A DNA stretch of 64,000 nucleotides. It comes from Blastocystis hominis. Lineage: Eukaryota; Sar; Bigyra; Opalinata; Blastocystidae. Both the position numbers and the translations under genes were made by a program. The DNA lies in NCBI RefSeq assembly GCF_000151665.1, contig NW_013171816.1, positions 481,176 to 545,175 on the forward strand. Reading direction: 5' to 3'. Below are positions 759 to 49,280 of this stretch, piece by piece (position 1 is the stretch's first letter; every line of letters begins with the position of its first letter). The notes under the pieces were generated by a model. That model was given only the letters and a program-made list of their open reading frames with translations. It was not told the DNA's origin and searched no databases.

Positions 759-2130
759 CTAAAGTTCACTCGCTTGCACCATCGATTCCCGTCGATTCTC
801 GAAAAAAGATCCGCGATGTGTCCGGAAAACAGGCTATTTCTCACTTCCCTTCCTCGCTCCTACAGTGGACACGCCCTCCCAAAACAGCAATCCGCTGAAG
901 AGAACAAACGAAACCACGTTCAGCGGATCGTGCGTAGGTTCCGTCTACCGCTCATCCATTCCCCGCGGTTCTACCTGGCTCTCATAGTTCCACATGACCA
1001 CCAACGTCAACAAAAAGGCCGTAACTTGGATACACGATCTACATTTCCACGTTTCCACGTTTCTACGTATAGCTGGGATTGCCGTAGAAGACCAAATACG
1101 AATAGACCCAATCATAGAAGAGTCCGGAGCAAAGATAGCCAATGAACGACATCCAGCTCTACAGCTGATTGGACGCACCAAATCGAACATAATCGACCTG
1201 AAGCATATCCATAAATCCGCGTCCAACGGCGTCAAAAAAGCTAAATAAATCCACGAATTGGATGGTTGTGGGGATTCGAATGGAGTAGAGAATAAAAACG
1301 ATGGGGATTGCGTAATAGCATTGGTATTTGTAAACATTGAATTCGAATTGCACCTGCATGGATGGCTATCGTTTATTAAAAAAGAATCGCAAGGGAAACG
1401 TAATTGAGAAGAGTTTTAGTGGCCATGGCGCTGCTAAAGGTGTTGATTACGACGACGATGGTGAAGATGAGAGTGGAGATAACGACGACAAGGCAGCACG
1501 TGGAGCGATTGACGTACAGAGAAATGCTGAGATTCGTCAGAAATGCTGAGAACGTACAAAATGAGGATCAGGGAGGTCAGGCCGAGTCCGAATTGGCACG
1601 AGCGAACCCATGTCCAGTCGACGAGTTTGAAGAAATACTCGACGATAGATGTGAAAACGCAGGAACACTACGTAGAAGACGGAGATGACATGTACCTGCA
1701 TTAACACCACCAAGTGGGTTGCTTGCAGATGGGGTGTCATGAGGCAGATTATTACATAGTACACAGCGCCTAGGAAGGCGATGATGCGGACTTTCGACGT
1801 GGGAACCAAATACTCGGTATACTCCAGTAAGTGATGACTCTATCGCAATTACTCGCGCGGAAAACATATACTTTTCGGGTTTGCATTTCATACATGACTT
1901 TCTTAATGATACAGTTGAAGACAAAATAAGCAAACGAAAGCATGATAGCTCCACTGAAGGTGTCAAAACAACTATTAGCTTACTTGGATTGGGTGTTGTC
2001 CAAAAAAATCTTAAAAGCTATGATTTCTGAGCAGGAAAATATAATTGTGCATAGGCCAATTAAGGTCAACTACAAATGAAACGCGAAAAAAGCGAAAACG
2101 AATAAACATTGCAAAACCCGATTTATCCAT
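759..2130 (-). CDS. Multi-pass membrane protein, unknown function
   Basis: I do not recognise the family. Reading the minus strand and removing about ten short introns (28-34 nt) gives one continuous hydrophobic protein of roughly 350 residues with 7-9 likely transmembrane segments, for example IIAFLGAVYYVIICLM, LGLTSLILIFISLYV, YYAIPIVFILYSIRI and TAFLLTLVVMW. The end, ENRRESMVQASEL plus TAG, is polar and probably cytosolic. The start (MDKSGFAMF at 2130) is the least certain part, because I could not find a clean join between the first and second exons. The intron at 1039-1066 is 28 nt of GGAAACGTGG-type repeats. The 3' motif AACAAACA at 674-681 fits the gene end. Confidence 0.6.
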
Positions 2131-2251
2131 TGCTGTGACTTATCCTCCGTCTATTGGTGCAATCAACCTCCTAGAAATACCGAAACAACAATATCGGACA
2201 TGAGATAATAGATTGTAGTTAACGAGTGGAACACAATATTGTTGTTTCTCA

Positions 2252-3197
2252 ATGAGATTTATAATTTTTGTACTCTTATTAACGGCTGTTGCTAGTGCTA
2301 GCGTAGCTTAGCTTATTGCTGCTTATGGATAGAATTCAAAGTACTCGTTGGATGTGTACATCGAATCCATCTGTGGAGATTGCCACCGCTTTGTAGCGAA
2401 CGAGTTGAAGTTCATAGCTCTTCATCCTGAGCTTCTTGACTATGTGGACTTCAACTTGCATATTTTTGGAAAGGCCCGCATCACAAGCAGATCTCCAGCA
2501 CGATTTGTATGTCAGTTTGGTGAAGCTGGCTGCACGGGCGACAAGGCTCTAAACTGCATCTACAAACACTCCACATCATTTACAAATGCTGTGAAGGTGA
2601 TGGAGTGCATTTACGAAACTGGTTACGCGTCCGAGAGTAGCATTCGCATGTGCTATGACAAGTTCTATCAGAAGAGTGCTGATGCCATCCAGTGCTTTAA
2701 ATCGGACGAAGCGGATCAATTGATGCTGGAAGCTGGAGACAACACACCTCCCCTGCGTTGGGTTCCTGCTTTTTCGGACGGAGGGGATATTCGTTTTGAT
2801 ACGCGGAATATCGTGAAGGAGATTTGTGGCCACATTGAAGGCGAGAAGCCGGCAGTGTGTGGAACGAGTCAGCACACAGTGGGAATGGACAGTGAATTGT
2901 AATTTGCAGTTTGTTGGTTACAAACACTCGATTTGTACAAGAGGGGATGAAGTGTGTGAAGTCGTTTTGGATTTGGAGAGGGACGAGTATCAGCAACCTC
3001 TCCGGAACTACGGTCTCGAATAGCAGCTCTATACTGGAATTCAGCAAAAATAATCCTCACATTTGTTCGATCTCTGGAAAAGCCGAAATTCCTGCAAAAA
3101 TTGCATCTACATCTGTAGACGATATGACAGAAGAAGCTGCAGCACGGTTCTTTGGGGTGTTGAGTTCTTCACTTCTCAAAATCACCTCGTCGATTAA
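2252..3197 (+). CDS. GILT-like lysosomal thiol reductase
   Basis: Resembles gamma-interferon-inducible lysosomal thiol reductase, which reduces protein disulfides in acidic compartments. An ATG at 2252 gives the signal peptide MRFIIFVLLLTAVASA. A 30-nt intron (2303-2332) follows, then VYIESICGDCHRF with the CxxC site (CGDC) in the right place after YIES. The family's cysteine-rich stretch follows (VCQFGEAGCTGD, LNCIYKHS). Downstream I infer a 31-nt intron near 2880-2910, a 32-nt intron at 3013-3044 and a 28-nt intron, ending TVLWGVEFFTSQNHLVD plus TAA. The C-terminal third is less conserved and its splicing is inferred from frame only. Confidence 0.72.
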
Positions 3198-4748: not shown

Positions 4749-7700
4749 ATGGAACAGTTTACAGCTATTGTTGTCACAGCTGCAGGCGCGAAGCAGGTAT
4801 GGAGCGCGTTCCGGTGGTGTAATGCGTTAGGCGTCTGCCTACCAGGCGGAACTGGAACATCGTCAGAAGAGTGGTTTCATTCCTGAGGATACTTTTGTCC
4901 TCGCCGTTCCAGACCCTAGCTCTGCCCGCGTTGGAAGGTTTGGCATTTTGTGAGCAATTAATCAAAGTGGTGGTGCGACGTTCAATGCAATCGTCGCTGC
5001 TTGTGAACATCTTTCTGCTCGTGCTGGGTTTGCTTCTGTTTCTCCGGATATTCTCGCAAACTCAAAGATCGTGATTATTCACTCTGGAGGCGATAGTCGC
5101 CGCTCCCCTCTCCAGAGTCTGTGTGGAAAGGTATAGGGCGATCGCACCGATCGAGCGTAGGCTTGGTCTGCTGTAAACTCTACCGAATGTGAGGAAGTGA
5201 TGACACCATTCGACTTTTTGCTCCTGAATCTGGCCAATGCCTTTAAGGACTCGCCTCCTGGCCTGATTGTTTGCAGTTCCGACGTCCTTCTGGATTTTGG
5301 CAAGTACAAGAAGGAGGACTGGGCGAGACCTGGCGTTACCGGTCTGGGCATCCCCATGGATATCGATTACGGTACTCGCCACGGTGTGTACATTCATGAT
5401 GAAAATGGGTATGTTGCATGCAGCAAGCGCGTCATCGCCTAGCCGCGTGATTGAGTTCTGCCAGAAAGCGACGGTGGAAGAGCTCCGCGCGAAGGGAGCG
5501 GTGCATCTGGTTCAGGAGAACGGGTAGGATCCATTTCTCCGTTTCTCTCTCTCTAACTTTTAGAAAGGAAGTCGAGAAGGTGGATCTGGACTCGGGCGTG
5601 GTGTTTTTCGATGCGGCCACGACGCAGATCCTCACGAACATCCATCTCTACCCGCCTCTGGACGCGTGTACCTACATGGGCGTGGACAGCGGTGCGAACC
5701 CGCTTCGAATCGAGCTGTACAGCGACATCATGGAGGCGCTCGGCGACTCCCCGCTCACTTACGACGACTACATGAACCTCCCCACCAGCGCGAAGAAGTA
5801 CGAAGCGTGGCTGCGGATCGAGCGTAGTGTGCAGGCCGTGCGCGACGCGCGCGCCATTTTCTGGCGGCATCTTCGCAAGATCCAGTTCAACGTGGCGGTG
5901 CCGGAGCAGAGCGACTTCGTCCACGTGGGCACGACGGTCCGGTTCGTCGCTCGCCGTGACGCGTAGAAAGAGAACATCGAGTTCCTCACGCAGCCCTCCG
6001 CGTGGGCGTCGCGCCTGCGTCTGTCGCGGCACGTGCAGAGCTACATCACCAACCCCGCGGCGCTGTCGGACGTCGTCGTGATGAACTCTCTGGTCTCGGG
6101 CGACGGCGAGGCGGGCTCCTGCGCGGTGATCGAGCACTGCCGGCTCTCGGGCACCTGGTCGATCGGCTCGCGCGCCTTCCTCTCGCAGCTGCGCTCGTTC
6201 TCGGACGTGTCGGTGCGCGACGGGATCGCGGTGCAGGAGATCGCGGTGTCCACGCTGAACCGCGCCTCGCCCGACGAGGGCGTGCTGACGTCGCGCCTGG
6301 AGGACTGCCACCACGCCGTGGTGATCTGCTACTCCATCCACGACTCCATCAAGGCGCAGCTCGGCACGCCGCAGGCCACTGTCTGCGGACAGTCCTGGGA
6401 GCGCTTCTTCGAGGTGTCCGGGCTCTCCGAGAAGCGTGTCTGGCCCGAGGGCGACGACCGCTCGCTCTGGTCCGCGAAGCTGTTCCCCGTGCTCACGCCG
6501 GGCGAGGACGAGCTGGACGTGGCGCTCTGGCTGCAGGACATGGCGCACGTGAACATGGAGTCGGTGAAGCGCTGGCGCGCGTGCGAGCGCATCAGTCTGA
6601 GCGACATCCTGACGTACTGCAACCCGTGCACGTCGTTCGAGTGGCGCCACCGCCTCAACCTCGAGGTCGCGCTGGCCAAGATGGAGGAGGTGCTGCGCAA
6701 CGGCGAGGACGTCTGCGTCCTCGGGATCATCCGCAAGATCGTCAGCTTCGGCGTGCTCAACGAGCTCGCCCTCGCGCGCCTCGACGCCCTCGCGACCTCC
6801 TGCGACCCGCGCCGCGTGCCTCGCATCTTCAGCACCATCGCCGACTTCCTCGCCGAGATGGCGCACAACAAGGGCGGACTCCGCTCAGGGCCCGCGCACA
6901 ACCCCGACTGGGACCTCCCCATGGCGTCGCTGCGCGCCGGCCGCCTCGCCGAGGCCGTCTCCATGATGGCCGCGCTGCGCGCGAAGTGGGTCAACTCGCC
7001 CGAGCGCATGGTGCGCGCCGCGCGGCACTACGAGGCCGCCGCGCAGGTGCTGGTCAGCGAGGTCATCTACAAGTGCGCGCGGTCCTTCCGCCGCTCCGCC
7101 GCGCCGCCGCTGGGCACCTGGGTGCGCGCGAGCTGCCCCATCCGCGCGGATCTGGCGGGCGGCTGGACGGACACGCCCCCCATCACGTACGAGCTGCGCG
7201 GCGGCGGCGTGTGCGTGAACGTGGCGATCAACCTGGAGGGACAGATGCCCGTCGTGGCCTGCGCGCGCCGGCTGAAGGACCCCGTGCTGGTGCTGCAGCC
7301 GCCCGAGGACTCGCCGTCGTCGCCGATGGTGTGGCGCACGCGCAGCGACATCGCGGACTACCACCAGCCGCTGGCGCCGGGCGCGCTGTTCAAGTGCGCT
7401 GTGGGCTTCGGGGAGAGGGACTCGAGCGTAGGTGATCGCGCTGGGACTGGTGAACCCCGCGAGCAGCCAGGAGCTGGACCAGCAGCTGAACTTCAACGTG
7501 GGCGGCGGCATCGAGGTGCGGATGAAGAGCTCGCTGCCGCAGGGCTCGGGCCTGGGCACGTCCTCCGTGCTGAGCGGCGCGCTGCTGGCCGCCATCTGCA
7601 CGGCGGTGGGCTACGAGTACGACGCGGACTCGATCGTGCACTCCGTGCTGATCCTCGAGCAGCTGCTGACCACGGGAGGCGGCTGGCAGGACCAGGTGGG

Positions 7701-8918: not shown

Positions 8919-10204
<1,286 letters not shown>

Positions 10205-10226
10205 CTGTGCTTAGTAAACGATATCG

Positions 10227-10234
10227 AACAAACA
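10227..10234 (-). terminator. TGTTTGTT of the acidic membrane-protein gene
   Basis: Minus-strand TGTTTGTT exactly four bases (GTCT) after the T at 10239 that would start a poly(A)-made TAA codon. It lies only 23 bp upstream of the next minus-strand start codon (10204). Confidence 0.75.
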
Positions 10235-10238
10235 AGAC

Positions 10239-12500
10239 AATGCTCATTGAGTGAGGATCGAATCCGATCTCTTCCTCTCAACACAAAATTACATTCTCTA
10301 CACACCGTCGTCGACTTTGGATTGATGAACCCGCCTACCCGGAACCCTCTCTCCTCACCCCTACAATTAGTGCATCGCACGCCATGATCGCTCGATCGCA
10401 GCAAATCCTCGGAGCTGGCGATTTCGTCGAATCCGGGCCGCACGATGGGCGACATGGCGAACCGCGCGGAGCGTCGCTGCAGCAGTCCCATGCGCTCGAT
10501 GTCATCCAGATCATATCTAATTCCGAGTTCCCCGCGGGTCCTACAGCGTCATTTTCTTCCGTCGAATTCTATGGAATGAGACACAATTGGAAACACGCAC
10601 CGAATGAGCGAGAGCAGAAGCGAGACGATGATGAGAATGAGGATGGCGATGACGCTCATCACGACGAGATTCCCCCGATTCAGCGTGTATTTCACCTGCT
10701 GGAAGGTCACAATGCCTGTCTCTGCGAGAATCTCTACACATCATGTATCGGCATCATGCCGCTCCTTTCTGCTCATCGTCGAAAATCGAGCATTTCACGA
10801 AGTATTTCTCGCGTCCGTCCACGTCTCCGAACACCACGTGCTTCTGCGTCTGCACCGACACCTGCATCGACTTGATCTCGTTCGCTACCCGTTACCACGT
10901 TTCCACGTTTCCACATTCCTTGTCGAACAGCGAGCAAACCGCGATTTCCAGAAGGTTCGATCGAAGGTCGAATGAGATCGTCTTCGATGTGATCCGCGGG
11001 GATTCCAACGTCAGCCACGCCGACTCCGTGTGGAACACTGTTCCCTTCGTCAGAATCGCGGTGTACTGGAACCGCGGTTCTGCACGACGCGGCGCACCCA
11101 CACAAAACGCAGTATAATCGCGGTTCGGAGATAACCGCGGGAGTCGCACGCGGATCCGATCTAGTTGGAAAAAAACCGCGGGAACTACCGTCTCCCTCGT
11201 CGATTTTCGCGGTTATTCCGTTCTCGATGACCAGCGACGTCGGCAGAACCGCGGAAATTTGCCCCGCCTGGCACCAGACCTGGCGAAGATTCGTCGCGTT
11301 GATTTCCAAAAGAACCGCGGTACTCTCCAGGCTCACTACCGCGGGAATCACCGCGATTAGCCCAAGCATCGCAGACGTCGGTTCCGCGGGGGAATCCTCC
11401 TCCGGTTTCTCCGATTGGTCGGTTTCCCCGGTTTCCCCGGTTTCTCCATCGGGCGTTTCATCTTCGTCGGGAGTTTCGAGTTTGAGGGGATGGAGGGAGG
11501 GCGATGAAACGCCCCGTTTGGGAGTTTCATCATCGGTTTCCCCGGTTTCCCCGGTTTCGTCCTCGGAATTGCCGAAAATGTCGTCGTCTTTCGCGATTAT
11601 TTTTGGGTTGGCCGGGTTCCGCGGTTTTGCTTCGCTTTCATCGTCGTCGTCGTTTTCGTTTTCGTCTTCTGTCAGCTTCGCGGATTTCTTTGATTTCTTG
11701 GATGGCTTCGATGGCTTCGATGACTTGTCCGCTTCCTTCATTTCATCCTCATCCTCGTTCTCTTTTTCTTTTTCTTTTTCCTCTTTCTCATCGGGACCAG
11801 CAGCATCCTCATCGTTCTCCTTTTCCTCTTTCTCTTTCTTCTCCTTCTCTTTTTCTTTTTCCTCTTTCTCATTGAGTTCTTTTTCCTCTTTCTCTTCGTT
11901 CAACCCATTCTCTTTCTTTTCTTTCTTCCCATTGGCTTCTCTTTCTTTCTTTTCGCTGGTTTTTCCTTTCCCTTCTGCGTATTTCCCTTCTTCATCCTCC
12001 TCCGGTTTCTCCGGTTTCTCCGGTTTCTCCGATTCCTCGCTTCGAAGCTTCGACGAGGACTTCCGACTGGACTTCCGCGAGGATTTCCTTGATGATTTCC
12101 GCGGGGATGCATCGTCCGAGTCCGCCTCATCCTCCACGGAAACGCTCTGCGATGAAACGGCCGTGGAAGCAGAGTCAGAAACCGCCTCCAAAGACGGAGA
12201 AGAAGACGTGGATGATGCCGTTTTGGATTTGGATTTGGATTTGGATTTGGATTTGGATTTGGATTTGGATTCTAACGAAGTGGAAGATAGCGCGGAGGAG
12301 CTAGAGCGGACAGAACCCTCTGCATCCGTAGAATCGAAATCCTCGGTCTTTGAACGTTTGCGCTTTTCGCGTAAGACACGAAGAAGCGATCGCGGGATTG
12401 CATGCACCTCAGTCAACGGCTCTTCAGCGCTGTCTTCTACAGGCAATTTCTAGCACTAAACAATTCAAGACGAAATTACATCCCGCATTTTAGACAACAT
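10239..12500 (-). CDS. Acidic K/E-rich single- or double-pass membrane protein; stop made by poly(A)
   Basis: Not recognised. A 30-nt intron near the start joins MLSKMRD to KLPVEDSAEEP. The N-terminal 350 residues are low complexity: a (SK)n run encoded by TTGGAT repeats, then long Lys/Glu stretches. A possible membrane segment (MLGLIAVIPAVVSLE) precedes a folded region (RFQYTAILTKGTVFHTESAW). A strong membrane helix follows (MSVIAILILIIVSLLL), then a tail with CTNC...CREC, a likely zinc ribbon. Introns of 28, 30, 32, 28 and 30 nt are seen; the join before ILAETGIV is unresolved. No stop is encoded: NEH is followed by T, then GTCT and TGTTTGTT. Confidence 0.6.
12224..12271. repeat. (TTGGAT)n hexamer repeat in coding sequence
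   Basis: About eight copies; on the minus strand they encode alternating Ser-Lys in the acidic membrane-protein gene. Confidence 0.85.
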
Positions 12501-18923: not shown

Positions 18924-21656
18924 ATGCTCCGTATTTTAAGGAGTACGCCTCAATTATGTTGGCAGAGGTTTCGTCTTTTTCAATGCGCCTTTTCAACAAG
19001 TGAGAGTGAATTGCGTATTCGGTGCCATATTGAGAATATCCAAGATTTATCAATTCCTTATGTACTAATTGAATCGAGTTTCTTGTCACGCTGTGAGCTT
19101 TCAGCTCGTTTCTGATAGATAGTTTGGAAACCGAATGCATGCGTTCGTGCGATGCATTTTATAGAAAAGAGTATTCGGAAACAGGGAGCCGTTCCGATTT
19201 CGCTAGGAATGATTGATGGAGACGTAAATATAGTGGAATATGTGTTAACGACTAGTTGGTTCTGGGATTAACACATGAAGAGCTGAAAAAGCTGTGTAAT
19301 GAAAATAGGAAAAAGCTTTGTTGTTATGAGTTCTTTTTTATCTGTCTGTTGCTATCTATAGAAGTACAATGTCCAGTATGTCTTTCTCCAATTCCAATGC
19401 CTTCGTGGCTCCCTCCACAGCAATGTATTGATTGATTGTTTCTTTGATTTTTTCTTTCTTTTTTTCTTTCTTTCTTTCTTTCTTTCTAATCCGTTTTAGC
19501 TATCTCAGCCAATTATACAGAATTCCCACGGTTCTCATGAGCGAGGTGTCCTGCATCCCAAACGACAGCGAAACTCCCACCGAGGAGGGAGCAGCGATCG
19601 CCTCCAGTCACTCCATTGTTTCCCCATTTCCCCGTTTCCACGTAGATGGTGTCCCTGGGTTTCCACCCCAATCAGCAAATCCAAAAAAGCCTCGATTTCT
19701 TCCAATCCAAAAATCTGTCCGTTTTTACCCTCAACAGCGAATTCCTTCCCTCCTCTCTCGGCTGTCGCAGGTTTCCCCGCGGTTTCCCCTCTCCCCTAGT
19801 TCGGTGCACTCCCCGCGGAACTTCGACCGCGAAGACCAGCTGTTTAACCGCGTGAAATTTCTTCGCTCGCGCGCGCAGTCGGCTCTGATTTTTGGCAAAC
19901 CGTATTCCGACGTGACCGAAACCGACTTGGCGCAGCGCGCCGCGCGCATTCTTCGCCGCGCCTCGGAGAAGGGCGTTTCGCCGCTGGACCAGAACCACTA
20001 TCTCCAGGCGGTGGGCGTTTCATCGGTGAATGACGCAGAGTCTGCGGTCGAGTCTGGACCCGCCGACGCGGCAGCGCGTCTTCGATCGAATGGACCGAAA
20101 CGCCTCGCTTGCCGCGCGAATCGCGACGATTTTGGCGGCATCCTCTTCGTCTTCGTCTTCGTTCGGCTTGTCATCTTCGTTCGGCTTGTCAAAACCGGTC
20201 ATGGAGTCGTCGGTGGTTCCCTCGCTTCCCTCCACGTACTCCGTTCTCTGCGTCGGAAACAAAACCGTCCAGGGCGTTGCCGCGCGCGCCCTAGTCATGC
20301 TCCCCGACGTCGCCATCCAGGGCTCCGAGCGACCCGTCAGCGAGGTCATCGGCGAGAGTAGAAACGTGGAAACCGGCCAATCGTAGCGATGACCTCGATG
20401 CTCTCCTCCAAGCTTCGTCGCACCGAAAGCGACCGAAACGTCTTCGAAACGCCCTGGAAGGCGGGCGTTTCCTCGCCTCTGGCGCTGAAAACCCCGATCA
20501 TTCCGTTCCCGGCATTGCCCACGCCGCGGCCGGGCTGTCCCGTGTTTATCACGACGTCCGTTTTGGTGCACATTGCCGCGGTTTCGCGCGGCTCTCCGCG
20601 CGCTCTTCTTCGCCCGTTCTCCGTTTCCACGAATCACGCCGCGCTGCTGACGCGCATCTTCGCTTCGCTGGTCAAAGAATCCCCGCCCTTGCACGTGTCG
20701 TTCCGCGGGAATGACGCGGCGGCGGCGCGGCTGAGCCGGCTGGCGGCGGACTTCGGGGAAACGGAGTTCGGCGTAACGGTGATCCCTGGAGGCCGCACGC
20801 CGGAGCGGAGCGTGGTGGTGGACGGGAGTGGACGGGTTTTGAACGAGGGCCGCAGCGAGCGGCTGGTTCGCCAGGCGTCCGAGGCGTTCGTGAAGAAGTT
20901 CGCAGATTACTTGCGCGTGGGGGTCCGAGGGGCGTTTCAACGTAGAAGGCTCCGCTGATCGTTTTGGAGGGAAAGATGGCTCCCGCCACGCTGCGCTATG
21001 TCGCCAAAATCGCCAAGGATTCTGGAATTCCGGTGTTTTTGGACTGCACCGAGAACGAGGAGTTTCAGAGCGTGCTGGAAAGTGGAATCGTGGAAACCTG
21101 CCAGTGGATGGTGATGAGCCAGACGAGTGCGGAGCGGTTGTTGGGCGGCTCGGCGAAGTCGCGTACTCATTTGATTGGCCGTGAATCGAAGCGATGAACC
21201 GCGGGAAAGCCGAGTTTACAGGGGAGGAAGCGATGCGATTTGTGTTGGAGGTACGGAAGAAATTGCAGGAACGGAGAAACGAAGACGAAAATGGCGGGAA
21301 AACGCCGAATATGCTGGTGTCGTTCGCGGAGCAGGGAGCATGTTTCGTGATGTCGGATAAGGAGAATGTGGAGTTGAATTGGCTAAAGGGAGACTCGGTG
21401 TTTAACCAATATTCAGGTAGGAATGATGGGAGTTGAGTTGATGTGGCTAATCATGGTAGATGTGGCTTTCGAGGGAGGATTTCTCTGGGGGCTGATGAAT
21501 CAATATCCGCTCGATCTGTCGATGAGTTTGGGGCGAATCTTGCAGGACCAGGTGAATTCGAGCAAAACAATCTTTGGGAAGTCGATTCATTCGTCCTGCT
21601 TTGCGAATCAAATTATGAAGTACATGACGGGAATTAGCTCGTTTGATTTGTTTTAG
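18924..21656 (+). CDS. Putative pseudouridine-metabolism fusion: PsiMP glycosidase-like plus pfkB kinase-like
   Basis: The N-terminus MLRILRSTPQLCWQRFRLF looks like an organelle-targeting presequence. Next comes a divergent IndA/PsiMP-glycosidase-like region: YVLIESSFLSR, KSIRKQGAVPISLGMIDGD, LVLGLTHEEL, EKGVSPLDQNHYLQASLRSSL. Then a pfkB-like region: SVLCVGN, NHAALLTRIFASL, APLIVLEGKMAPATL and, near the end, SDVAFEGGFLWGL. About ten introns are used: 28-33 nt mostly, about 76 nt with CTTT repeats near 19430-19500, and 43 nt near the end. Several conserved residues seem absent: GxK in the glycosidase and GAG before the final catalytic Asp. The enzyme may be altered or inactive. Fused glycosidase-kinases are known in fungi. 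Confidence 0.6.
19450..19487. repeat. (CTTT)n tract inside an intron
   Basis: Pyrimidine-rich CTTT repeats fill the unusually long (about 76 nt) intron that joins ...VAPSTA to IYLSQLYRIP in the pseudouridine-type gene. Confidence 0.65.
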
Positions 21657-22153: not shown

Positions 22154-22310
22154 AGTTGTTAAGGAGAATAAAGCAACTGAATGTTTCGATTTATATATGA
22201 ATTACATGCGCTGTTTGTTTGGAAACGGATATCGATGTCAAAGATGCGTTCTGGCTGAACTGTTCTGAATCCTATATCTAAAGTGGTGGATATGTCAATG
22301 GTAGACAGGT

Positions 22311-22383
22311 GCCTCAATAGCTCAGTTGGTAGAGCATCCGCTTCGTAAGCGGCAGGTCGTGTGTTCGAATCCCACTTGGGGCT
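22311..22383 (+). tRNA. tRNA-Thr (CGT anticodon), copy 1
   Basis: Acceptor GCCTCAA pairs with TTGGGGC. The D arm GCTCAGTTGGTAGAGC, anticodon loop TTCGTAA (anticodon CGT) and T arm GTGTGTTCGAATCCCAC are all present. No intron. The downstream sequence is T-rich, as expected for Pol III termination. Confidence 0.93.
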
Positions 22384-22646: not shown

Positions 22647-22719
22647 GCCTCAATAGCTCAGTTGGTAGAGCATCCGCTTCGTAAGCGGCAGGTCGTGTGT
22701 TCGAATCCCACTTGGGGCT
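22647..22719 (+). tRNA. tRNA-Thr (CGT anticodon), copy 2
   Basis: Identical to the copy 264 bp upstream over the whole gene. A few flanking bases also match (AGGT before, TTCTTTT after), which suggests a recent local duplication or gene conversion. Confidence 0.93.
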
Positions 22720-24033: not shown

Positions 24034-26372
24034 AAGATAAACTCTTCTTATACGCCAAAATTAGATTATACACATTTTGAATACACTTCCCAATTTCAGG
24101 ATTCGAGTCGTAAAGACTTCGCAGCTGCTCCATGTACGTCGCTACGTTTGCTACATTCACCATCTGCCGAATTCCAGCCTCTATCCATCATGCCATTCCA
24201 TGGTGATGACCATCATTGGAAATGAAATCCAGGAAGAGAGCGCAATTCTGCACAACTACCTGCGATTTCTGATTGATATACATGCAATTGATAATGACCG
24301 ACACGAAGTTGCGATCCAGCAGGAACGCTCTGCACTGCGCGTCTATTCATTCAACCATCGACCAGAAAACGAGTACTTCGATACAAATTCTGGAAGAGAG
24401 GGATGATCAATGCGATGATCTCCTCGTTGCCTCCGTTGTCCTGCAATGAATCAACCAGCAGCGAAACCGCGTATCGCGACAGCAAAATCGTTGCGATCTC
24501 GTTGTCTAGTCCCCATCCCCCCGCGCCTCCTACAATACGACGACAGCAGGAACAGTGTTCCAATTGTGTTCCGCTGGATAATCACGTGCGTCGGGAAACA
24601 CTGCAGCGCGTTCAGCACCACATCCACCGCTCCGCAGTTCATGATTTGATTTCGCCCCGATTCTTGGAATTACAAAAATCATGACTTTTTTTGGCATACC
24701 ATACAGCGACACTTTCCACAGAATCCCCGTGAGAAGCGAAAACGACGTCTGCAGCTTGATGGTTGCCGCGGTTTTCACCAGCAGCGCGCAGAGATCCGTT
24801 TCCAGCAGGAGTTTCGCCGTGTTTTCTGGATGAAACGCCCTCCGGGAAAGAGATACGGTTCGAAATGAGGACAGCCAATAGATTGAGGAGGGAGGAAAGC
24901 GTGGATTCGCTTTTGAAGTTGCGTTGCATCGAGTCTTCGATGAGCGAAAAAAGTCCCGAATTTTGGATTTCGGAGATGCAGTGCGCGTCGTAATGGGACA
25001 TTCGGATTAATTTGGACAGCATGGAACATATGTACCCTAATAGCGTGCTGTCCACGTGACTTTTGAGAACGTCGCAGGCGAGCGGGAAAACGCCCTCGTC
25101 CCAGAGCATCTTGCAGACGGCCTCTTTCCCCGCGGCAAGGATCCATTCGATGGAACGCGTGCAGTGCGTGCAGATCGTTACGTTTTGCAGGTAGGACGAC
25201 ATCGTCATGATGATCGTCGCCACCATATTCTGGTCGATTACCGTCTGCAACGCCTTCTCTACGCAAGAATCCTCCGAAACAACCAAAAAACGAACGTTCC
25301 ATGGAGCACACCGATCGCATCATCTTCGTCGCTTCCTCCAAAACCGCTTCTTCCCGCTGGCAAAGATTCGTTATGCGGATCAGCAACGACACGCCTCCGT
25401 TCTGCAGCACATCGTCGCGGAAGGATTCTACATCCATGATGCGATGAAACGCTCACCGAATCGATTCATCGCGAATAAAATGCGAATTACGCAGAGACAA
25501 ATCTCCGAGTTCGCGGGGAACTGGTTGATAACCGCGGAAGCGAGCTGGAAAATGTGCTTGGATCGCAGATACTCGCATCCCACTTCTATCCATGAAACGT
25601 GGAAACCGTGGAAACCGGAGTGGGCGAGCTGCTCGCAGAGAGAAACGATGGAGAACTGAATGATTTCGTTTTGGAGGTGAAGCGTCTGGAATTCTTCGAT
25701 GTTCGATAGAATCGACGACTGCAAAAGAAGCGGATGGAGCTCTTCTAGGCGATGAGCGATGAAAGAAATATAAATTATGAATACCGTGGGAGGCGAGAGC
25801 GATGTAGTTCACGATGATTTGCTGCAGGACGCGGAGGTTCGTCAGCCAATTGCCCTCCACGCGAAGCACTGCGAGGAGGGTTTGCTCGCACACGTCGAGT
25901 GGGATCTTGATTTCTGGAGTATAAATAAGAGAAAAAAGAAAGGCAAACTTGTCATGCCGTACGCTGCCATGACGGCAAGCTCGAGCGAAAGCACGGAATC
26001 ACTGGCAATTCGGGTGATCTGAGTGCAGAGATATTCCAGCAGCTTCGTTTGGAGGGCTGCTTCCGCGCAACAAGCTACCTCTCACAGATGCCTACAAATC
26101 TTTACGGTATCGCGAATAGGCGATTAGACAATGGCATCCCAATTTTAAAATGGACTTTACAGTATTGTTTGTTTTGATAGACAACAGAACTGTCTCTACA
26201 ATAGGCAGGTCACGAATGGACTTCTCTTCGAGACCTAAAAAGTCAATAGTAGGCACCGCTTCTGACTCTCCACACACAGATCCTTCAGCATCTTCAGTCC
26301 TTCGGTTTGTGTCTTTTTATCGTCAATGGAATCTCGTAAAACATTCAGAATCGATGCAATTTTAACATTCAT
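24034..26372 (-). CDS. Armadillo/HEAT-like repeat protein; stop made by poly(A)
   Basis: A helical-repeat protein of about 620-650 residues with no recognised family name. It starts MNVKIASILNVLRDS. Repeats are Leu/Ile-rich helix pairs, for example LLIRITNLCQREEAVLEEAT, NMVATIIMTMSSYLQNV, LLVKTAATIKLQTSFSLL and NEEIIALIIPLFQNLYRS. About 14 introns of 28-40 nt are consistent; one (25586-25615) is the GTTTCCACG-type intron. No stop is encoded: the frame reads LAYKKSLS and then T, TGTG, TGTTTGTT (24022-24029), so TAA would be created by poly(A). Importin-like or ARMC-like scaffold is possible. Confidence 0.7.
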
Positions 26373-35905: not shown

Positions 35906-38900
35906 ATGGATCCAAAAATAGAAGTTGTAGGAGTAATAGTGATATGCTTACTCCTCTAGTCTACTATTGTTATTCCTGATATTAATGACATTGACCCACC
36001 GGATGATTTATATTACTGGGAGTAAGCACCACCAAAGTTCTCTCATTTGCTAGTTCGCTTAATACAGCGTCTGTTTTGCAGCCATTGTTTGAACAATTTA
36101 AAGATGCGATGAATAATGAAGATATTGTATGGAATTCTAGTTCTTTGCCATCTAGTCATCAAAGTCGCTTTTCAATGCATTTGCCACTTCTTTCATCAAT
36201 CTCTATAAGGGTTGGAGCCCTCGTACCGATCCAGAAACAAAATGCCATCCTACCGAAGTATGTACGGTGTTCAATACAGTATCCTATGAATCTATTCTCT
36301 CATCATAGTGGCTCAGCATCGCTGCTCACACAAGCGTACCGGTCGATGCGCTCACCACCGAGTTCCTCGTTCTCGAGATTCTCTCTCGTTCCTCGATCAA
36401 TCGCCGCGCCCTGCGCGCCACTCCCTTCCCCTCCGTTCTCCACCACTTCCTCCGCGAGCTCCTCAAGAACTTCCCCAAAGAGGAAGATTCCTTTCTTCTC
36501 TTCGATCAAACCTCCAAGCCGATCGACGAGCCGCTCTTCAAGCAGTGCCTTCGCCTTCTGTTCACCATCGCCGAGCACTGGCTGCGTCTCCCCTACCCTG
36601 TCTCCGACTGCGCCGGCGTTTCCTCGCTCCTGAGCAGCTGTGACCGCGGGGATTGCAGCACGGAGTTCGACGTCTCCATCGAGTGCGGCCTGCTCTTTCT
36701 CTACTCGCTGAATCGCGGCTGGACGGACGACTTCAACCTCATGACTCGCGTGGTTTTCGGCAGCGTGGGCGTCCGCGCCTCGGTTTCGCGTCGCATTCAG
36801 TTCGAGAAAGTGCTCCGCAGCCTCTACGCCGTGCTCAACGCGCGGCTTCACCTCAATCTCAGCGCGCTCACCGCGGGAGGAATGAGTTTGCCGGCCTTCG
36901 AGGAGTGTCTGCAGCGCACTCCGGAATTTCTGAGCGTGTCGACGCTGCGGATGCGCGAAGAACGACGCAGAGAAGTAATGATCGAAGCGCTCAGCGCGCT
37001 GACGCACCACAAATCGCCGCATTGTCTGCTCTCTCTCATCGCCACGAACGGAGAAGCCTTAAAACCCGAACAGGCCGTGTCCGCGCTGCTCGCCGCGCTG
37101 CCCGACGGCGAATTCGACGTCCGCGTCCACGTGCTCGTCGTGCTCTTCCTGCTTGCGCGGCAAGCCGGCTTCGCCGCCGTCCTCGCCGATTCGCTCACCG
37201 TCGACACGCTGGCCATGCTGCTGGGACCGGCGAGCTCATCGGAGGGTCGCTGCGATGAAACGCCCGAGCAGTTGTGGGTGCTGCAGATGCTCTTCCTTTC
37301 GATCTGTACCGGCGATTTAATCGCGGGAATCGCGCTCCCGGCGCTGCCTCTGGCGACGACGTGGCAGCTCCCCGCGGTTGTGGAGATCGAGAAGCAGCAC
37401 ATTCGGCATTTGCGGTTATTTTCGCTTTGGTGCGAAGCGAATCTGGCGAACGACGCGGCGATGGAGGTCGTCGGCCGCCTCACCGACCCCAGCCGGCCTT
37501 TGGGACGCGCGAACGCGGTGCAGCTGCAAGCGATCTGCAGTCTGTTCCTCCACCACGCCAGCGAGACGGCGCCGATCCGCGGGATTTTGCTGAATTTGCT
37601 GGCGCAGTCCGCGTCGCCGACGTTCGTTTCGATCCTGCTGAACGAAATCGCGCAGCACTCGGAATTGCTCAGCGTTCTCTCGGCCATTCCCACGCCGAAG
37701 CACTCGAATCCTTGTCTCATTCTCTCTCACAGCGATTCGGTGCTCATCGCCTTCGAGGAATCCGCGCAGCCGCTTCTCACGATCCACGCGAGTCGCTCCG
37801 TTCCCATCGAGCTTCTCCCCGACCACACCTCGCTTCTCTACCAAGAACCCATGAAACTACCCAAGTGTTCCGCGGTTATTCTACAGGGAGAGGACGACAA
37901 CCCCGTGGAGATCCTGGGGGTCGAGCTCTCGCTGCACGGACGCCCCTGGGGCAAATTTACCCCCACGCTGAAAGCGAATTTGGTGCTGGATCCCGAGCAG
38001 CCGCCGATTTCGGCCACGATCCGCGGGAATCCGGTGCTCTGCAAGAACACGTCGCTCCCCGCGGCCATCCGGTCCCTGGGGGGCGTTTCATGTTTGTTTC
38101 CGCTGCTGCAGTTGGAGCCGGAGAACCGCGATTATCTGAAGAATGTGTTGGATTTGCTGGCGTCTCTGTTTTCGGAAGTCAGCGAAGATGATTGGCTGTT
38201 GTTCTCTGAGTTATTGTGTTCCCTGGATCCCGCGGTTCTCAACGCGTTGCTCCCCGGGTTCACCGCCAAAACCCGATCAAACGGATCGAAGGCGCTGCTG
38301 AACCCGCACCTGCTGAATCGCCTGACGGTTTCGCTGTCTTCGCTGGGGTTCCGCGGGGAAAGCTGCGAAGAGGAGATCCGCCAGTTGGTGATCTGCAGTC
38401 TGATGGAGGAGGAGGACGTTTCGGCGGAGTTACGCGCGGCGTTTCATCAGGTGAAGGCGTGTGTGAAGTGGAATCAGGAGTTGGTGACGCTGTGCCCCCC
38501 GAGTGCGGATTTGATGATTCGCATGGCGATGAAGGGCGAGTTCCGCGATGATTTGTTCCTGAAACCCGCGGGGGAGATCGAGAAGGCGATCTGTGAGAAT
38601 GGAAACGTGGAAATTTTGATGGATCAGCTGGAGTCCCGCGGGAACGACACGATCGCGATGTGGATTCCGTTTTTGTTGAAGGCGATCGAGTCGAGCGAAT
38701 TGGAATTGCGAATGCTTTTCATCGCCAAATTGAAGCGATTGTTGACTGCCAAAAATCACCCCTTTTTGCGGGAAGAGCCGGTTTCCACCTTGGAAATGTG
38801 TCTTCATCCGATCGAGATTGGGTCTCCGTTTTTCTCGGAGGTTCTCCAGTTTCCCCATTTTGAAAGGTTGTTCCTCGTTCCTCCGCCTTCGCAGTCGGAT

Positions 38901-41900
38901 TGGCTGCGCCATCTTCACCAGCTCATGCAGCTAAAGACTTCCAATCCTTCCCTTCTTCAAAACCCGTCCATTCTACCGCTTTTGAAAGTCTTCTGCGCGC
39001 AGTTCGAGGCCTTCTGGATCTCCGATTCTACCAATGGTTCCACGAATGGTTCTACGAATGGTTCTACAAATGGTTCTACCAATAGTTTCTTAGGTAATTC
39101 CTCAGATATTTCCACAGTTTCCACGAATGGTTCCACAAATGGTTCCACGAATGGTTCCACCCATAGTTTCTTACATAATTCCTCAGGTGTTTCCACGGTT
39201 TCCACAGTTTCCACAGTTTCCACGAATCCTCCATCGAATTCGACGGAAGTGCTCCTCACGAACTGGAGTTTCGTCCGCTCCTTCCTCGCGGTTCTGCTTC
39301 TGTTCCCCGCGTCCTCGGTGGCTCCGCATCTGCAGACCGTCTTCTCCCGCTTCCTCCCGCTCTTTTCCGCGCTCCCCGCGGCCGACGAGGAGGACCTCCT
39401 CTTCGTCAGTGCCCAGCCCGCCTCGGGCATTGCTCCGTCCGTCCAGAAGTCCATGCAGAACGCGCTGGCCGCGCTGGTCTCGCAGCTTCTCCAGGTCTGC
39501 GACGCGCCGCACATCGCTCTCCTCTACACACAATTAACCGCGGTTCGACCGCCCATCGATCCAGCACTCCCTCAACGCGCGCTCCTCGCCCTCCAGGCTC
39601 GCCACTCCTCCCTCCAGACCGCGCTGGCCGCGGGAATTCCCGCATGGACCGCCGACGAAACGCCCGACTGTTTGTGTCTCGCCGAAACGCCCGCCTCGCC
39701 GCACTGGCGGGAGCTCTGCGACGTCGCGCTGACGCGCGTCCTCCTCCAGTAGTCCCCGGTTTCCACGTTTCCCCGTAGGATGGAGCGGATCCGCCAGTTG
39801 ACCCGCGGTTATTTCGCCAAAACGCGGAGTCCGAATAGTCCCTGGACGCTCCGGGAAACGCCCAGCACGGTGGGCATTGCCCAGCAGGTCTCTTCGGCAT
39901 TCCTCCACAACCTTCTCGTCGCCCAGCCGGGCGTTTCGCGCCACGAGCAGGCCTCGGTGTGGAACGTCCCGACCCCCGTTTCCCCGACCCCCACAACCCC
40001 CACCATCCCCGCGGAACACGCCTCCGCCGCCATTCTGCACAACGCGCAGATCGCGTTTTCCGCGGGAGCGGTGCGTGTGACGCCGATGGACCAGATCCGC
40101 GGGACTGTCGCGATTTTGGCGAACGTTTTGTATTTCACGCCGGATCCCGCGGAAATCGAGCGCAGGGAGCGGAAGGTCGCGTTCTACGACGAGAAAATTG
40201 CCGCGGGGAGGGCGGGGGAAAATGTGGCGCGGCTGCTGGGCGAGATCCGCGGGGAAGAGCAGAAATTGGCGCTGCTGACGAGCGAGGAGTTTCGTTCGTA
40301 CCGAGTGGGAGAACCGCGGGGAATTGACGGGTAGTTGCGAGGAACCGCGGTGGAGTTGTTCTTCGCGTCGGGCGTTTCGCTGTTCTTCGCGTTCGATTCG
40401 CCGGCGGTTCGAAAAGAATTCCACGCGGTGCTTCGCTCGCTCGCTCTCCCGCGGTTAGAGCCGTTCCTCGGCGAAACGGCCGCGGAGCGGTGGTCACGTG
40501 ACTCGAGCGAAGCCCGTTGGCACCGCGGGGAACTGAGCAATCTGGAGTACGTTCTTCGCGTGAACCGGCTTGCGGGACGGAGTTACAACGACTTAAGTCA
40601 ATACCCGATCGTTCCCTGGGTGCTCAGCAACTACACGTCGCCGCTGCTCGATCTCCGCAACCCCGCCAATTTCCGGCGGCTCGACCGGCCCATGGGCGGG
40701 CAATCGGAGAAACGCTTCTCCGCCATGCAGGTTTCCCCTTTTCCGGGCGTTTCATGCAGCAAAAATTCGAGATGATGCGCCAATTGGAGGCGGAGGAAGC
40801 CGCCGACCCGCTCGCCGACCCGCTGCGACTTCTCTGCCCTCCCCCGCGGCACCACGCCACGCTCCCCTCCAGCAGCGCGACGGTCCTGTGGTCCCTGCTG
40901 CGCCTGGAGCCCTACGCCACGCTGCACGTCGTCCTGCAGGGCGGCCGCTTCGACCGGCCCGACCGCCAGTGCGCCTCCGTCGCCGGCGCCTGGCGCGGCG
41001 CCTGCGAGAACGAGAACGACTGCCGCGAGCTCGTGCCCGAGTGGTACGCGCTCCCCGCGGTGTTCCAGAACGTCAACAAGTGGGCGTTTCGTCGGAGTGG
41101 CGAGTAGATTCGATCTGGGCCCGCTGCAGGGAGCGGCGGAGCGGCTGGGCGCGATCCGCCTGCCGGACTGGGCGTCGTCCGCGTACGACTTCGTGCTGTC
41201 CATGCAGGACGCCTTCGAGAGCGAGTTCGTGGGATCCCACCTCCACCAGTGGATCGACTTGGTCTTCGGGGCGCTGCAGCGCGGCGCGGGCGCGGAGAAA
41301 GCGGGCAACGTCTTTCCGCATCTCGCGTATCTGACCGAGGCCCAGGCCGAAGCGCTGGCGCGCGACCAGCCCGATCTCTACCTCCAGGCCGCCGAGATCG
41401 TCGAGAACTTCGGGCAGATCCCCGCGCAGGTCGGGTTCCCCGCGGAAATCGAGCGTAGATCAGCACCGCGCCCCACCGCGCACGGAAAGCGCACGGGTTC
41501 TGCAACCGCGTGATCGGCGTGCGGTCCGACTGGCGGGCGCAGGGCTGCGTGGCGCTCTTCTACGACGCGCACGGAGCCAAGCGAACCCTCCGATTTCTGG
41601 AATGGCGCGAATTCGGGGTCATCGACGCCGTGGCAAAAAACGAGGGGATTTTCGCACTCACCGAGTCCGGCGCCATTCTCCACTTCTCTCTCCCCAAATC
41701 CCCGCGGAAGCAGGCCGAAACGCTCACTCTTGACGGACAGCGCGGGTCTCTGCTGATTCCCGCGGGACTGGCGTCGAGCACGACGATTCTCGCGGGGAAC
41801 GGTGACTTTTTGCTGTCCTGCGCGTTCGGCGGCGTGCGCGTGGTTTCGCTGCAGGAAGATCCCGCGGGAGAGAGCGCGTGGGAGAGCTGGCGCGGCGGCG

Positions 41901-42379
41901 AGACGGTAAAGAAGATGGCGAGCGACGGGTCGAAGCTGGTGGCGGTGAGCGACGAGGATGACGTGTGGGTGGCGTCGCTGCTGACGAGTCGGCCGCAGCT
42001 GGAGTTCGAGCTGCGGCTGAAGAGCGCGTCGGTGCGCGACGTGGCGGTGAGCGCGCGGAGCATGCTCGTGGGAGTGCTGGGGACGGACGGAGGCGTGCAT
42101 TTGTTCTCGCTGTTCGATGGAAGCTTCTTGAGGACATTGCACGGGAAGGGCGTCGTGAGGCTGTTCTGCGTCACGCACACGAGCTCCGTGCTGATGGTGT
42201 CGGAGGGCTCGCGGACGCTGCAGCACTATGATCAGTTGAATGGATTGATCGGCGAAGTGAGTCTGTCGTTTGATCCGGATCGGATTAAAACGACGGAAGA
42301 CGCGCGATTGGTGATTGTGGAAGGAGAACGCGGCACCGAGGTGCGTGATTTGAAAGATTTGAAAGTGTTTCAAGGTTAG
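35906..42379 (+). CDS. BEACH-domain protein with PH-BEACH and C-terminal WD-type region
   Basis: Very large protein, about 2,050 residues, of the LRBA/neurobeachin/LYST class that acts in membrane traffic. A long helical N-terminal part (DPKIEVSTIVIPDIN onward) precedes a PH-BEACH region (LRGTAVELFFASGVSLFFAF). The BEACH domain follows (LAGRSYNDLSQYPIVPWVL, RLDRPMG, VLQGGRFDRPDRQ, CRELVPEWYALPAVFQNVNK, GSHLHQWIDLVFG), then a WD-like tail ending LKDLKVFQG. Introns near the start are 33, 32, 29 and 30 nt; later ones are 39749-39778, 40305-40334, 40731-40759, a 28-nt and a 29-nt intron. An Asn-Gly-Ser-Thr repeat lies at 39030-39240. TAG (42377-42379) sits exactly four bases before TGTTTGTT. Confidence 0.92.
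39030..39240. repeat. Degenerate 12-base repeat encoding NGST / STVST, coding
   Basis: Repeats of a GGTTCCACGAAT-type unit and of ACAGTTTCC encode two NGSTNGST blocks and an STV run in the BEACH protein between the helical region and the PH-BEACH module. The frame is kept throughout. Confidence 0.85.
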
Positions 42380-42383
42380 GAGG

Positions 42384-42391
42384 TGTTTGTT
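42384..42391 (+). terminator. TGTTTGTT of the BEACH gene
   Basis: Exact motif four bases (GAGG) after the TAG stop, so the predicted 3' untranslated region has zero length. Confidence 0.75.
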
Positions 42392-42443
42392 TTGAAAGAA
42401 AGGAGGATTGGGAAGGAATGAGCGGAGAACCCTCACAAACAAA

Positions 42444-42699
42444 TTCTGTCTTCCTGCAAACCATGTGATTTCGCCCGAATACATAGCGCGGTTGAGAGTC
42501 AATGGCGGGAACACTCCAGATCTGCACACCTTGCTATGTTTACATGGATTCTAATGAGCTGAGTTTGAATCAATTTGAATTCCTCCGAGGCAAATCCATC
42601 CCGTGCATCCAATACATGCTGTGAACAGAAATAGAAGCCAATGGAATTCCTGTATGGTCACGGCAGAATCTCCAATGTGTCATTAAAGACACGACTCAT
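42444..42699 (-). CDS. Small hypothetical protein
   Basis: A short minus-strand exon chain starting MSRVFNDTLEILP, then (after an intron of about 44 nt) HVLDARDGFASEEFKLIQTQ and, after a short intron of about 22 nt, IWSVPAIDSQPRYVFGRN. No family recognised. TGTTTGTG on the minus strand at about 42433-42440 would end it, without an encoded stop in this frame. Intron sizes are unusual, so the model is tentative. Confidence 0.35.
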
Positions 42700-46892: not shown

Positions 46893-47378
46893 TCACTTTT
46901 TAGGGTCACGTAAACGAACACCCAAAACCTTCTCCATCTTGGAGATCAGAGCCTGGTTCGGAATCACCTTTCCAGACTCGTAGTCCTGAATGACGGAAGC
47001 TTTGACGTTCAACTTCTGTGAATGAGCGATACGAACAATAGACGCCTACCACAGCTAGATCTTTCTGGGTCATCTGCTTCTCCTGACGAGCGCTTTGCAG
47101 ACGATGCCGGAACGAAAGGTTAACCTTAGGAAGGGTGAAAACCTCATCTTCCTCTTCAACCTTTCTAGCGTACAGCGCTGGAGCGTTTACAATATTCTTG
47201 TTTTTTCCAGCATCATCTACAAGTCAAGGAGAGCGCCGAATCCCATACACTTCGCAGTTGTTTCGACAGCATTATCTAGTCTGCGGGCGGTATTTACCTG
47301 CTTCTCGCGAGAAACAGTAGGCTTCTTGCCTCGCTTATCCCAACCTGCAGGTGTCCAGTCTTGATATATAATAGACAT
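46893..47378 (-). CDS. MBF1: Multiprotein bridging factor 1
   Basis: Transcription coactivator and ribosome-collision factor. N-terminal MBF1 domain MSIIYQDWTPAGWDKRG, then VNTARRLDNAVETTA and YDAGKNKN (32-nt intron between), and a Cro/C1 helix-turn-helix: LQSARQEKQMTQKDLA, then (34-nt intron) KLNVKASVIQDYESGKVIPN and MEKVLGVRLRDPKK plus TGA. About 130 residues, normal. Convergent with CPN10; the two share a 3' signal. Confidence 0.93.
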
Positions 47379-47525
47379 TTTTCTTAGATAAAATCTTTCA
47401 AAAAAATAATAACAACGATGAAAACTTAAGAGTTGTTTGACCCTTTCTTTGATCTCTTATAATATGCAAGAATAATCCTGGAAATTTCTCTGAAATTCCA
47501 AAAATCTGGTCCATTTCTTTAGAAT

Positions 47526-49280
47526 ATGGAAAAGAAACAACTCGCAGAGCAGTCTTCTGCCGAAGGACCGACTCGCTCTACTGCCGCACCTCATGACAAA
47601 ATTCCGGTTCGGGTTCTGGATGTTTCTAATTTGTAGGAGTCGGCGTTGTGCATGAGTTGTTTCAGGCCCTTTTGTGACCTCCGTTGCAAGGGTATCATTT
47701 GCTGTTTTCTTTGAATTCATAGGACCGTGTATGCGTTGCTACCACAGTGCATGTGTTCGCCACCAAGGCGAACGACTAAAATCATGGAAATGTAGTTTGT
47801 GCCAAAATAAGGAAACTGATGTAGTTCGCTGGGGTTCGTTCTTTTGAATAGAAATTCTCAAAAATGCTGCGATTTGCCAAGGAAGAGTGCCAGAAACGGC
47901 ACGAGTTTCCCGGTTCGGGCTTCAGTGAGCTTTTGTTGCTCGACACGACGGTTCCTATCAAAAAGCGTGACAATGTAACGGCCAAAGTGGCTCTTAATTT
48001 GAATTTGCGTGACTTTCCAGGTTGTAAAATGCAGTGAGTGCGACAAACACATCCGCAGCCAACTTTTACGCTGCGTCACTTGCGGTTCTCTTTATCACCG
48101 AGGCTGCCTTCCCCTGAACAGCATCGTTCTATCCAATCGTTTCATCGTGTACATGATTCGTTAATGATTCTCTCCTATAGTTGTCCCAATCACTACCAGA
48201 GTTTTTCTTCTTTTTTCTTTCTTATTACGCCTAGACAGCAGCAACAACTACCTCCTCTCTCTTCTTCTCGACCAATTCGACGTTTCTCTGTTTCCACGTT
48301 TCCACCGTAGAAACTCAAAGGTACCCCCGTTTCCTCCAAGCGCGACCTCCACGGCTTCCGCAACCGCAATCGCTGCCGCATTCACGTCGTACCTCTCCAT
48401 TCCCGCGGTTATTCCTAGGGTCCGAGTCGGAACCGCGGAGGACGCGGCGGGAAGCGTCTGTACGCGCGATTCCTGCGATGACGAGTAGATCGCATTTAAT
48501 CGCATCGGACCCGACGCTGTCGTACGGGTGCGCGTCGACGGTGTGCGCGCGGTGCGGGAAGCGGCGCGTGTTTCCGTCGTACATCGACCGGAGCTACCTG
48601 AAGGAGCCGTGGACGTGCGAGCTGGACGTGTGGGACAAGGAAGGCATGACGTGCGACTGCCCTGAGAAAGAAATGCGGTTGAAGAGCGTCGACGAGGCCG
48701 CGTCGCGGCTGAAGCTGACCACGCCGGCGATCTGGGGAGGAAACAGCATGAAGACGGTGAGGCAGGACGCGAGGGATGAGCGGTAGAACAACAAGTTCGT
48801 GCCGTCGGCGCTGAACGCGATCGAGATCATCAACTACACGTACTTCAGCAAAATCGCGCAGAAGGCCACGCAGCGCGTCAATTATCTCGGGTTCGTCGCG
48901 AATTCCTTCGCTTTTGACCACCATCTCGAGACCGAGCGTTCGCTTTTTGATAAAAACCCGATCCGTCGTAGAGAAGGCCGCGTTCTCGGAGAGTTCGCCG
49001 GTGGCTCGCGCGGCGAACGCGCTGCTGCGGGCGTTTCAGGGCGCGACGACGCTGACGGTGAAGAAGATCGCGCAGGACGAAGCGTTTATGAAGGCGACGT
49101 TCGACGGAGAGAAGTCGGCGTTGGTGCAGTGCGTGCGGTTTATGATGGAGCAAGGCGTGGTGGCGCTGGTGGAGGAGGGAGCGCTCACGGAGGAGAGTGT
49201 GTTTGTGCTCAAAGACGGGAAGGAGGATAAAAGAAATGTAAAGGAATTGCGCCTGGCGAGGTTGTTCCAGGCTCATGAGT
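47526..49280 (+). CDS. PHD-type and CW-type zinc-finger protein; stop made by poly(A)
   Basis: Likely chromatin reader. First zinc cluster: CMSCFRPFCDLRC, CMRCYHSACVRHQG, WKCSLC. Second, after an exon MLRFAKEECQKRHEFPGSGF: VVKCSECDKHIRSQLLRCVT, then CGSLYHRGCLP and VCPNHYQ. A CW-type finger follows: CARCGKRRVFPSY, PWTCELDVWD, GMTCDCPEKE. The C-terminal part is helical. About 11 introns of 28-34 nt fit, including one of the GTTTCCACG kind at 48282-48310. No stop is encoded: FQAHE is followed by T, GCGA and TGTTTGTG (49285-49292), giving TAA by poly(A). The combination PHD-PHD-CW resembles histone-methylation readers; targets unknown. Confidence 0.78.

Follow-up and report, generated by a model that had tools for sequence, protein, structure and literature searches.

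In a 64-kb stretch of contig C2 of Blastocystis hominis (hereafter the window; the genome comprises 18.7 Mb in 40 contigs), introns of unrelated genes are built to a large extent from a few short DNA words, and a subset of genes carries the same words in both its exons and its introns; they are strand-balanced, concentrated in the middle of the gene and sparse between genes. At least three words are involved: GTTTCCMC, CCGCGG with preferred flanks, and GGGCGTTTC. We consider it probable, at roughly 0.58, that these are ordinary introns whose interior became dominated by DNA words which also accumulate in the exons of the same genes. The initial annotation, in which the window had been picked, described ten such introns and offered three readings, namely a spreading introner-like intron type, a shared splicing element and a genome-wide word bias.

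All ten stretches were confirmed at their coordinates: each is 28–30 nt long, starts with GT and ends with AG, with GGAAAC in the sense strand in three and GTTTCC or close variants in seven, as had been claimed. Some do consist almost entirely of the word, as described, whereas others combine one copy or two with an ordinary 3′ end, and the present gene models place them in seven genes (1039 counted) instead of eight. These models come from a homemade gene finder trained on 264 kb (the window and the next 200 kb) without homology or transcript data, in which an intron length peak at ~28–36 nt arose from a flat length prior. Version 2, which adds splice-site weights to version 1, calls six of the ten introns exactly (10885, 20358, 30691, 39749, 40731 and 48282), version 1 five. 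The ten introns are:

1039..1066, minus strand: putative intron, GGAAAC type; no gene called, weak frame support
10885..10914, minus strand: intron, GGAAAC type, in a gene that is kinase-like by eye; gene finder call
19618..19645, plus strand: putative intron, GTTTCC type; sequence and coding score
19771..19799, plus strand: putative intron, GTTTCC type with CCGCGG; sequence and coding score
20358..20386, plus strand: intron, GGAAAC type; gene finder call
25586..25615, minus strand: putative 30-nt intron, open in frame, GTTTCC type; sequence and codon score
30691..30719, plus strand: GTTTCC intron in a glycosyltransferase family 49 gene; gene finder, weak LARGE1 alignment, paralogs
39749..39778, plus strand: GTTTCC intron in the BEACH gene; gene finder call
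40731..40759, plus strand: GTTTCC intron inside the BEACH domain; gene finder, alignment-supported excision, CATGCAG direct repeat
48282..48310, plus strand: GTTTCC intron; gene finder call

The weakest of the ten is 1039–1066, where the best-scoring frames on either side fit excision and contain one stop each. The gene finder read through 19618–19645 and 19771–19799: with both removed the coding score is slightly higher (48.4 versus 44.3), and removal of one alone leads to stops. The 11 codons of 25586–25615 score in the lowest 6% of the windows of the host gene (23119–25970), with which a protein search found no homolog. Six word introns were tested by aligning the spliced proteins to solved structures. 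No gap occurs at the junction in ELP3, RBG1 and poly(A) polymerase; the BEACH domain alignment at 40731–40759 is likewise gap-free at the junction, an 11-residue gap beginning about ten residues later; DIS3 shows a one-residue gap a few residues ahead of the junction; and the LARGE1 alignment for 30691–30719 is weak. These alignments support the assignment of the word introns as ordinary minimal spliceosomal (U2-type) introns with GT–AG ends that are probably excised precisely. They resemble in length and borders the Blastocystis introns of ~30 nt with GT–AG ends in the relevant passages of PMC5608401 and PMC3129679; those passages give intron length, number and types, and the shared words are the feature added here. 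RBG1/DRG1 itself is present in two copies that encode the same protein across the query (C36:470162-470836 and C1:517477-518152), with introns apparently of 30 nt (C36) and 31 nt (C1) as judged from match lengths only.

Within the window GTTTCCMCG is found 21 times where chance predicts 0.99, and none of 100 shuffles reaches 21. Ten of these matches lie inside eight of the ten listed introns, those at 30691 and 40731 carrying GTTTCCCCT instead, and the other 11 lie outside, several of them being coding tandem repeats. The excess is far above chance, and what had been said of the introns and their word is borne out in part. Genome-wide, the dimer GTTTCCMCGTTTCCMC is found 366 times and its reversed pattern never, AACCGCGGGGA 491 times and its reversed pattern once. 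Of the 30 dimer copies encountered first on contig 1, 25 lie in called introns of 28–35 nt, four in exons and one between genes, compared with 347 intronic among 5844 random positions of the same contig 1 loci. Among the introns of 27–38 nt in the unbiased 264 kb, GTTTCCMC in either orientation is carried by 8 of 234, and any word by 15 of the 92 window introns versus 3 of the 142 others. The densities per kb in exons, introns and intergenic DNA of the 264 kb are 0.30, 1.65 and 0.06 for GTTTCCMC, 0.53, 1.10 and 0.08 for CCGCGG-type words, and 0.11, 0.83 and 0.008 for GGGCGTTTC. As to the equal word frequency that the initial annotation had named as contrary to mobile introns, the tandem dimer is strongly intronic and not equally distributed, and exons show an enrichment of single words as well. 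An 8-nt tandem period within introns was considered and dropped: 28 of 30 word spacings measure 8 nt, 25 of them from introns fetched with the dimer, which itself has this period, and without the dimer-fetched introns three spacings of 8 nt and two of 9 nt are left. In the BEACH gene no clear period of word spacing is seen by eye.

For the exons, observed counts were compared with within-gene codon shuffles, in word-rich genes (a set defined after the data had been seen) and in the next 200 kb. In the word-rich genes CCGCGGTT occurs 71 times against 2.3 in the shuffles, GTTTCCAC 29 times against 2.3 and GGGCGTTT 29 times against 2.1, an excess of up to 31-fold, while the next 200 kb give 2 versus 2.7 for CCGCGGTT and 4 versus 1.8 for GGGCGTTT. 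The two orientations are balanced in exons (26:26, 53:49, 35:36, 11:14), and the two main words appear in all three codon frames, unevenly. CCGCGG-type words number 64 in the exons of the window (1.91/kb) and 7 in those of the next 200 kb (0.07/kb), and 5 in the intergenic DNA of each (0.19/kb and 0.05/kb). CCGCGG is the sole GC-only palindrome clearly raised in word-rich exons (156 versus 47.8); TATATA reaches a similar ratio but with 6 copies only. A bias in the codons or amino acids of particular genes might be held responsible, since some exonic copies encode VST, GET or KPE simple repeats and frame use is uneven; however, the excess over the shuffles exists on both strands and the words fill introns as well, which makes this explanation hardly credible, and as a sole cause it is ruled out by the codon shuffles.

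Exon word density correlates with the share of word introns (rho 0.63, 68 genes, perfect-dimer introns dropped), and the words co-occur in the same genes (rho 0.43–0.58). GC content was rejected as the cause, word density following gene GC weakly at most (rho 0.02–0.29). By tenths of gene length, 300 matches distribute as 11, 21, 32, 41, 42, 45, 52, 30, 13 and 13, with 10 in the 500-nt flanks, a profile to which the BEACH gene contributes many matches. Some genes have 8 to 15 words per coding kb. On contigs 1 and 2, members of the two word families come within 1 kb of each other in 10 versus 1.7 and 11 versus 1.8 cases by circular shifts, the C2 figure being taken among the matches listed, up to 1.69 Mb. 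Moreover, a stretch of 228 kb (C2 529,465–757,868) is free of either exact word, which has a probability of 0.0006 under uniform placement, a lenient test because the words cluster by gene. Where exonic copies stand at most 20 nt apart, the spacing is divisible by 3 in 23 of 32 cases, or 23 of 28 without four copies fetched through the dimer, and among the exonic matches listed (40 and 19) a surrounding intron is possible for 13 and 5. Words also stand at gap-free aligned positions in conserved proteins, among them VETG in ELP3 and KTAV, LPAE and FPAG in DIS3; gap-free alignment at these sites suggests that the words there arose by substitution and not by insertion. Further word introns and word-rich features of the window are:

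40305..40334, plus strand: CCGCGG-word intron, BEACH gene
41080..41107, plus strand: GGGCGTTTC-word intron, BEACH gene
48389..48418, plus strand: CCGCGG-word intron
10517..10544, minus strand: CCGCGG-word intron
11161..11188, minus strand: CCGCGG-word intron
58873..58901, plus strand: CCGCGG-word intron
36242..42379, plus strand: BEACH gene body, richest in words; 57 word matches at 45 places within 36,000–42,500
8932..12403, minus strand: word-rich gene body, kinase-like by eye
19537..21656, plus strand: word-rich gene body
39189..39224, plus strand: exonic tandem GTTTCCAC array, 9-nt period, coding for VST repeats
11422..11439, minus strand: exonic tandem GGGGAAAC, 9-nt period, coding for GET repeats
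11536..11553, minus strand: exonic tandem GGGGAAAC, 9-nt period, coding for GET repeats

Near the VST array, 39014–39180 contains 12-nt coding tandem repeats (STNG) whose units are close to the words. Amid word-rich genes, the one at 4799–8289 (GC3 0.88), whose domains are fucose pyrophosphorylase and GHMP kinase, holds none of the words.

The age of an intron position could be assessed with several paralogs for one GTTTCC intron, 30691–30719, which lies in a large family: glycosyltransferase family 49 has 82 matching stretches genome-wide, of which eight were fetched. Six of the seven informative paralogs (L057, L058, L059, L060, L061 and L063) have an intron at the same site and in the same phase; L056 has none there, and the alignment of L062 falls short of the site. 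Aligned globally to 30691–30719, the six paralog introns score 3–9 of 25 and are unrelated to it in sequence. By this comparison, 30691–30719 is an intron at an old position that carries words where its paralogs have other sequence. L056, in turn, holds a CCGCGG-word intron at another shared site. For a word intron in TPS, the intron of the paralog lies 6 nt off and may or may not be its counterpart. Conserved position combined with unrelated sequence, which had been put forward as contrary to mobility if seen across subtypes, is found for 30691–30719 between paralogs; this intron is the strongest case against insertion. Other Blastocystis DNA was found neither in viral contigs (one protein scan, one pattern scan) nor in prokaryotic genomes, where one protein scan returned five haloarchaeal matches.

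Several observations weigh against in-place change of old introns, and most of them speak for introners, i.e., 28–30 nt elements that spread by self-copy insertion, each making a new intron. With 25 of 30 copies in introns, the 16-mer dimer shows a clear intronic preference beyond what plain gene-body bias needs, and near-identical 30-mers sit in unrelated genes, 10885–10914 and an intron at C1:260587 (in a gene that is Lon-like by eye) being one base apart. All four covering paralogs of the ABC transporter L018 lack its word intron (two by spliced alignment, two by match length), and 40731–40759 shows no sign in any of five BEACH paralogs by match length; its absence is clear for the nearest one (C18, 50% identical, open frame of 1647 codons) and less sure in the rest, where the length of the match falls short of the residues matched by up to 45 nt or exceeds them by up to 36 nt. 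For these two introns, gain would be the simpler reading. Moreover, CATGCAG ends both the left exon and the intron at 40731–40759, a 7-nt direct repeat; a run of this length arises in 91 of 2000 shuffles. This repeat shifts the balance slightly towards introners and away from in-place change. The 3′ halves of GTTTCC-type introns are also more alike (0.491) than those of 33 pyrimidine-rich word-free introns (0.388). However, GGAAAC-type 3′ halves are no more alike than those of 13 purine-rich word-free introns (0.564 versus 0.554), so that the test splits between the types, one at control level and one above it. Across 44 word introns, terminal direct repeats are shorter than 4 nt in 42, the others being 40731 with 7 nt and one in L019 with 4 nt; their mean length of 0.682 versus 0.551 in shuffles (reached by 1.5% of them) becomes 0.535 versus 0.509, not raised, once 40731 is set aside, and an AG/GT flank test gave no general signal among word introns. 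The word offset within introns is variable, the same words are present in exons, and the position at 30691 is shared with unrelated introns. On balance the introner reading of the initial annotation keeps the two introns without paralog counterpart, the repeat at 40731 and the GTTTCC-type 3′ ends on its side, but is weakened by the old position, the exonic words and the lack of a general target-site duplication; we regard it as unlikely overall, although intron gain may have occurred in places.

Two further explanations assign the words a function. A splicing or branch-point element recognized in RNA would be compatible with the otherwise ordinary TGAN...TAG 3′ part in which word introns end, but the words occur in both orientations, at variable offsets and enriched in exons on both strands, and most introns do without (GTTTCCMC in 8 of 234); this proposal of the initial annotation is therefore very improbable. 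Selectively maintained gene-body sites that bind a regulatory or chromatin protein would agree with strand balance, clustering by gene and sparseness between genes, and CCGCGG words are somewhat raised in the 300 nt upstream of genes (4 versus 1.0 expected). This raised count is at the same time a point against the gene-body reading, as are the sparse intergenic CCGCGG words, which exceed Markov expectation (AACCGCGG 5 versus 0.4, CCGCGG 5 versus 2.6). Yet GTTTCCMC is not clearly raised upstream (3 versus 1.8 expected), the words lie in conserved coding sequence, and the 8 to 15 words per kb seem too many for ordinary sites, which leaves selected binding sites rather unlikely. To the points against in-place change belong furthermore that GTTTCCAC is also raised in the word-poor next 200 kb (11 versus 3.8 shuffled), that no transcripts entered the homemade gene models and certain exonic word matches look like missed introns, and that word densities on contig 1 are inflated because its word-rich loci were picked for holding the dimer. 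Of the three original readings the word bias fits best, though in another form than the one proposed, centred on gene bodies and a subset of genes and comprising several words.

If ordinary introns were indeed taken over by such words, the driver would act on DNA and not on RNA or protein. The likeliest candidate, adopted from the proposal for the cyanobacterial word HIP1, would be repair or conversion in gene bodies that is directed by sequence and biased so that near-matches become matches, after which local tandem duplication may multiply GTTTCCMC, in exons mostly by frame-keeping steps. Word writing would be limited in exons by frame and protein and by little in introns: the words would show best there because an intron requires no more than GT, a branch-point region, AG and ~30 nt of length. 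The full proposition, that self-reinforcing words rewrite many gene bodies by biased repair or conversion so that unrelated introns look alike although none has moved, is put forward tentatively and is itself doubtful. It weighs against in-place change of old introns by such words that no driver was identified, no search for a methyltransferase or binding protein having been made.

Three observations lie apart from the words. Two tRNA-Thr(CGT) genes (22306–22403 and 22642–22739), 336 nt apart, lie in 98-nt stretches that are 95% identical. A predicted gene at C2:597972-598915 (116797–117740 of the 264 kb) consists almost wholly of an ACCTGT tandem repeat of more than 100 copies coding for (YR)n. 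Many TGTTTGTT motifs occur between genes; together with introns of ~30 nt they fit Blastocystis subtype 7 as PMC3129679 and PMC5608401 describe it, from which the subtype is inferred.

Among the best-ranked records on Blastocystis introns, introners and over-represented gene-body oligonucleotides, which include few subscription papers, we found no earlier report of such words. Over-represented words able to spread by molecular drive are known from bacterial DNA uptake sequences and Chi sites. The likeness lies in the over-representation; those systems are bacterial, whereas the words described here belong to a nuclear eukaryotic genome. Introners (PMC9860276) share with our case the similar introns in unrelated genes and differ from it in that here one intron position is old, a general target-site duplication is missing and the words stand in exons. 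An introner's sequence is confined to its copies, whereas here single words are exon-enriched and the dimer is mostly intronic; target-site duplication is not required of every introner family, and it is not a family feature here. The survey in PMC9860276 searched introns and their flanks by BLAST with a 1e-5 threshold and discarded low-complexity families, so that word introns of 30 nt would probably be missed by it. Resemblance between introns of unrelated genes serves as evidence of introners; here it probably arose at least partly by in-place change, a caution for introner surveys.

The closest known parallel appears to be HIP1, the highly iterated palindrome of cyanobacteria, for which the pertinent passages of PMC4390886 propose a ratchet of biased mismatch repair that yields words without functional selection. 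In both cases a short GC-rich word lies far above chance, and CCGCGG is palindromic as well; here, however, the genome is eukaryotic and nuclear, and several words are concentrated in some gene bodies. GTTTCCMC and GGGCGTTTC are no palindromes, and a HIP-type spread of about once per kb throughout the genome is replaced by concentration in some genes. Should biased repair prove to be the driver, the words would constitute a eukaryotic parallel to the iterated words of bacteria, in which biased repair bends the evolution of both proteins and introns in a common gut protist.

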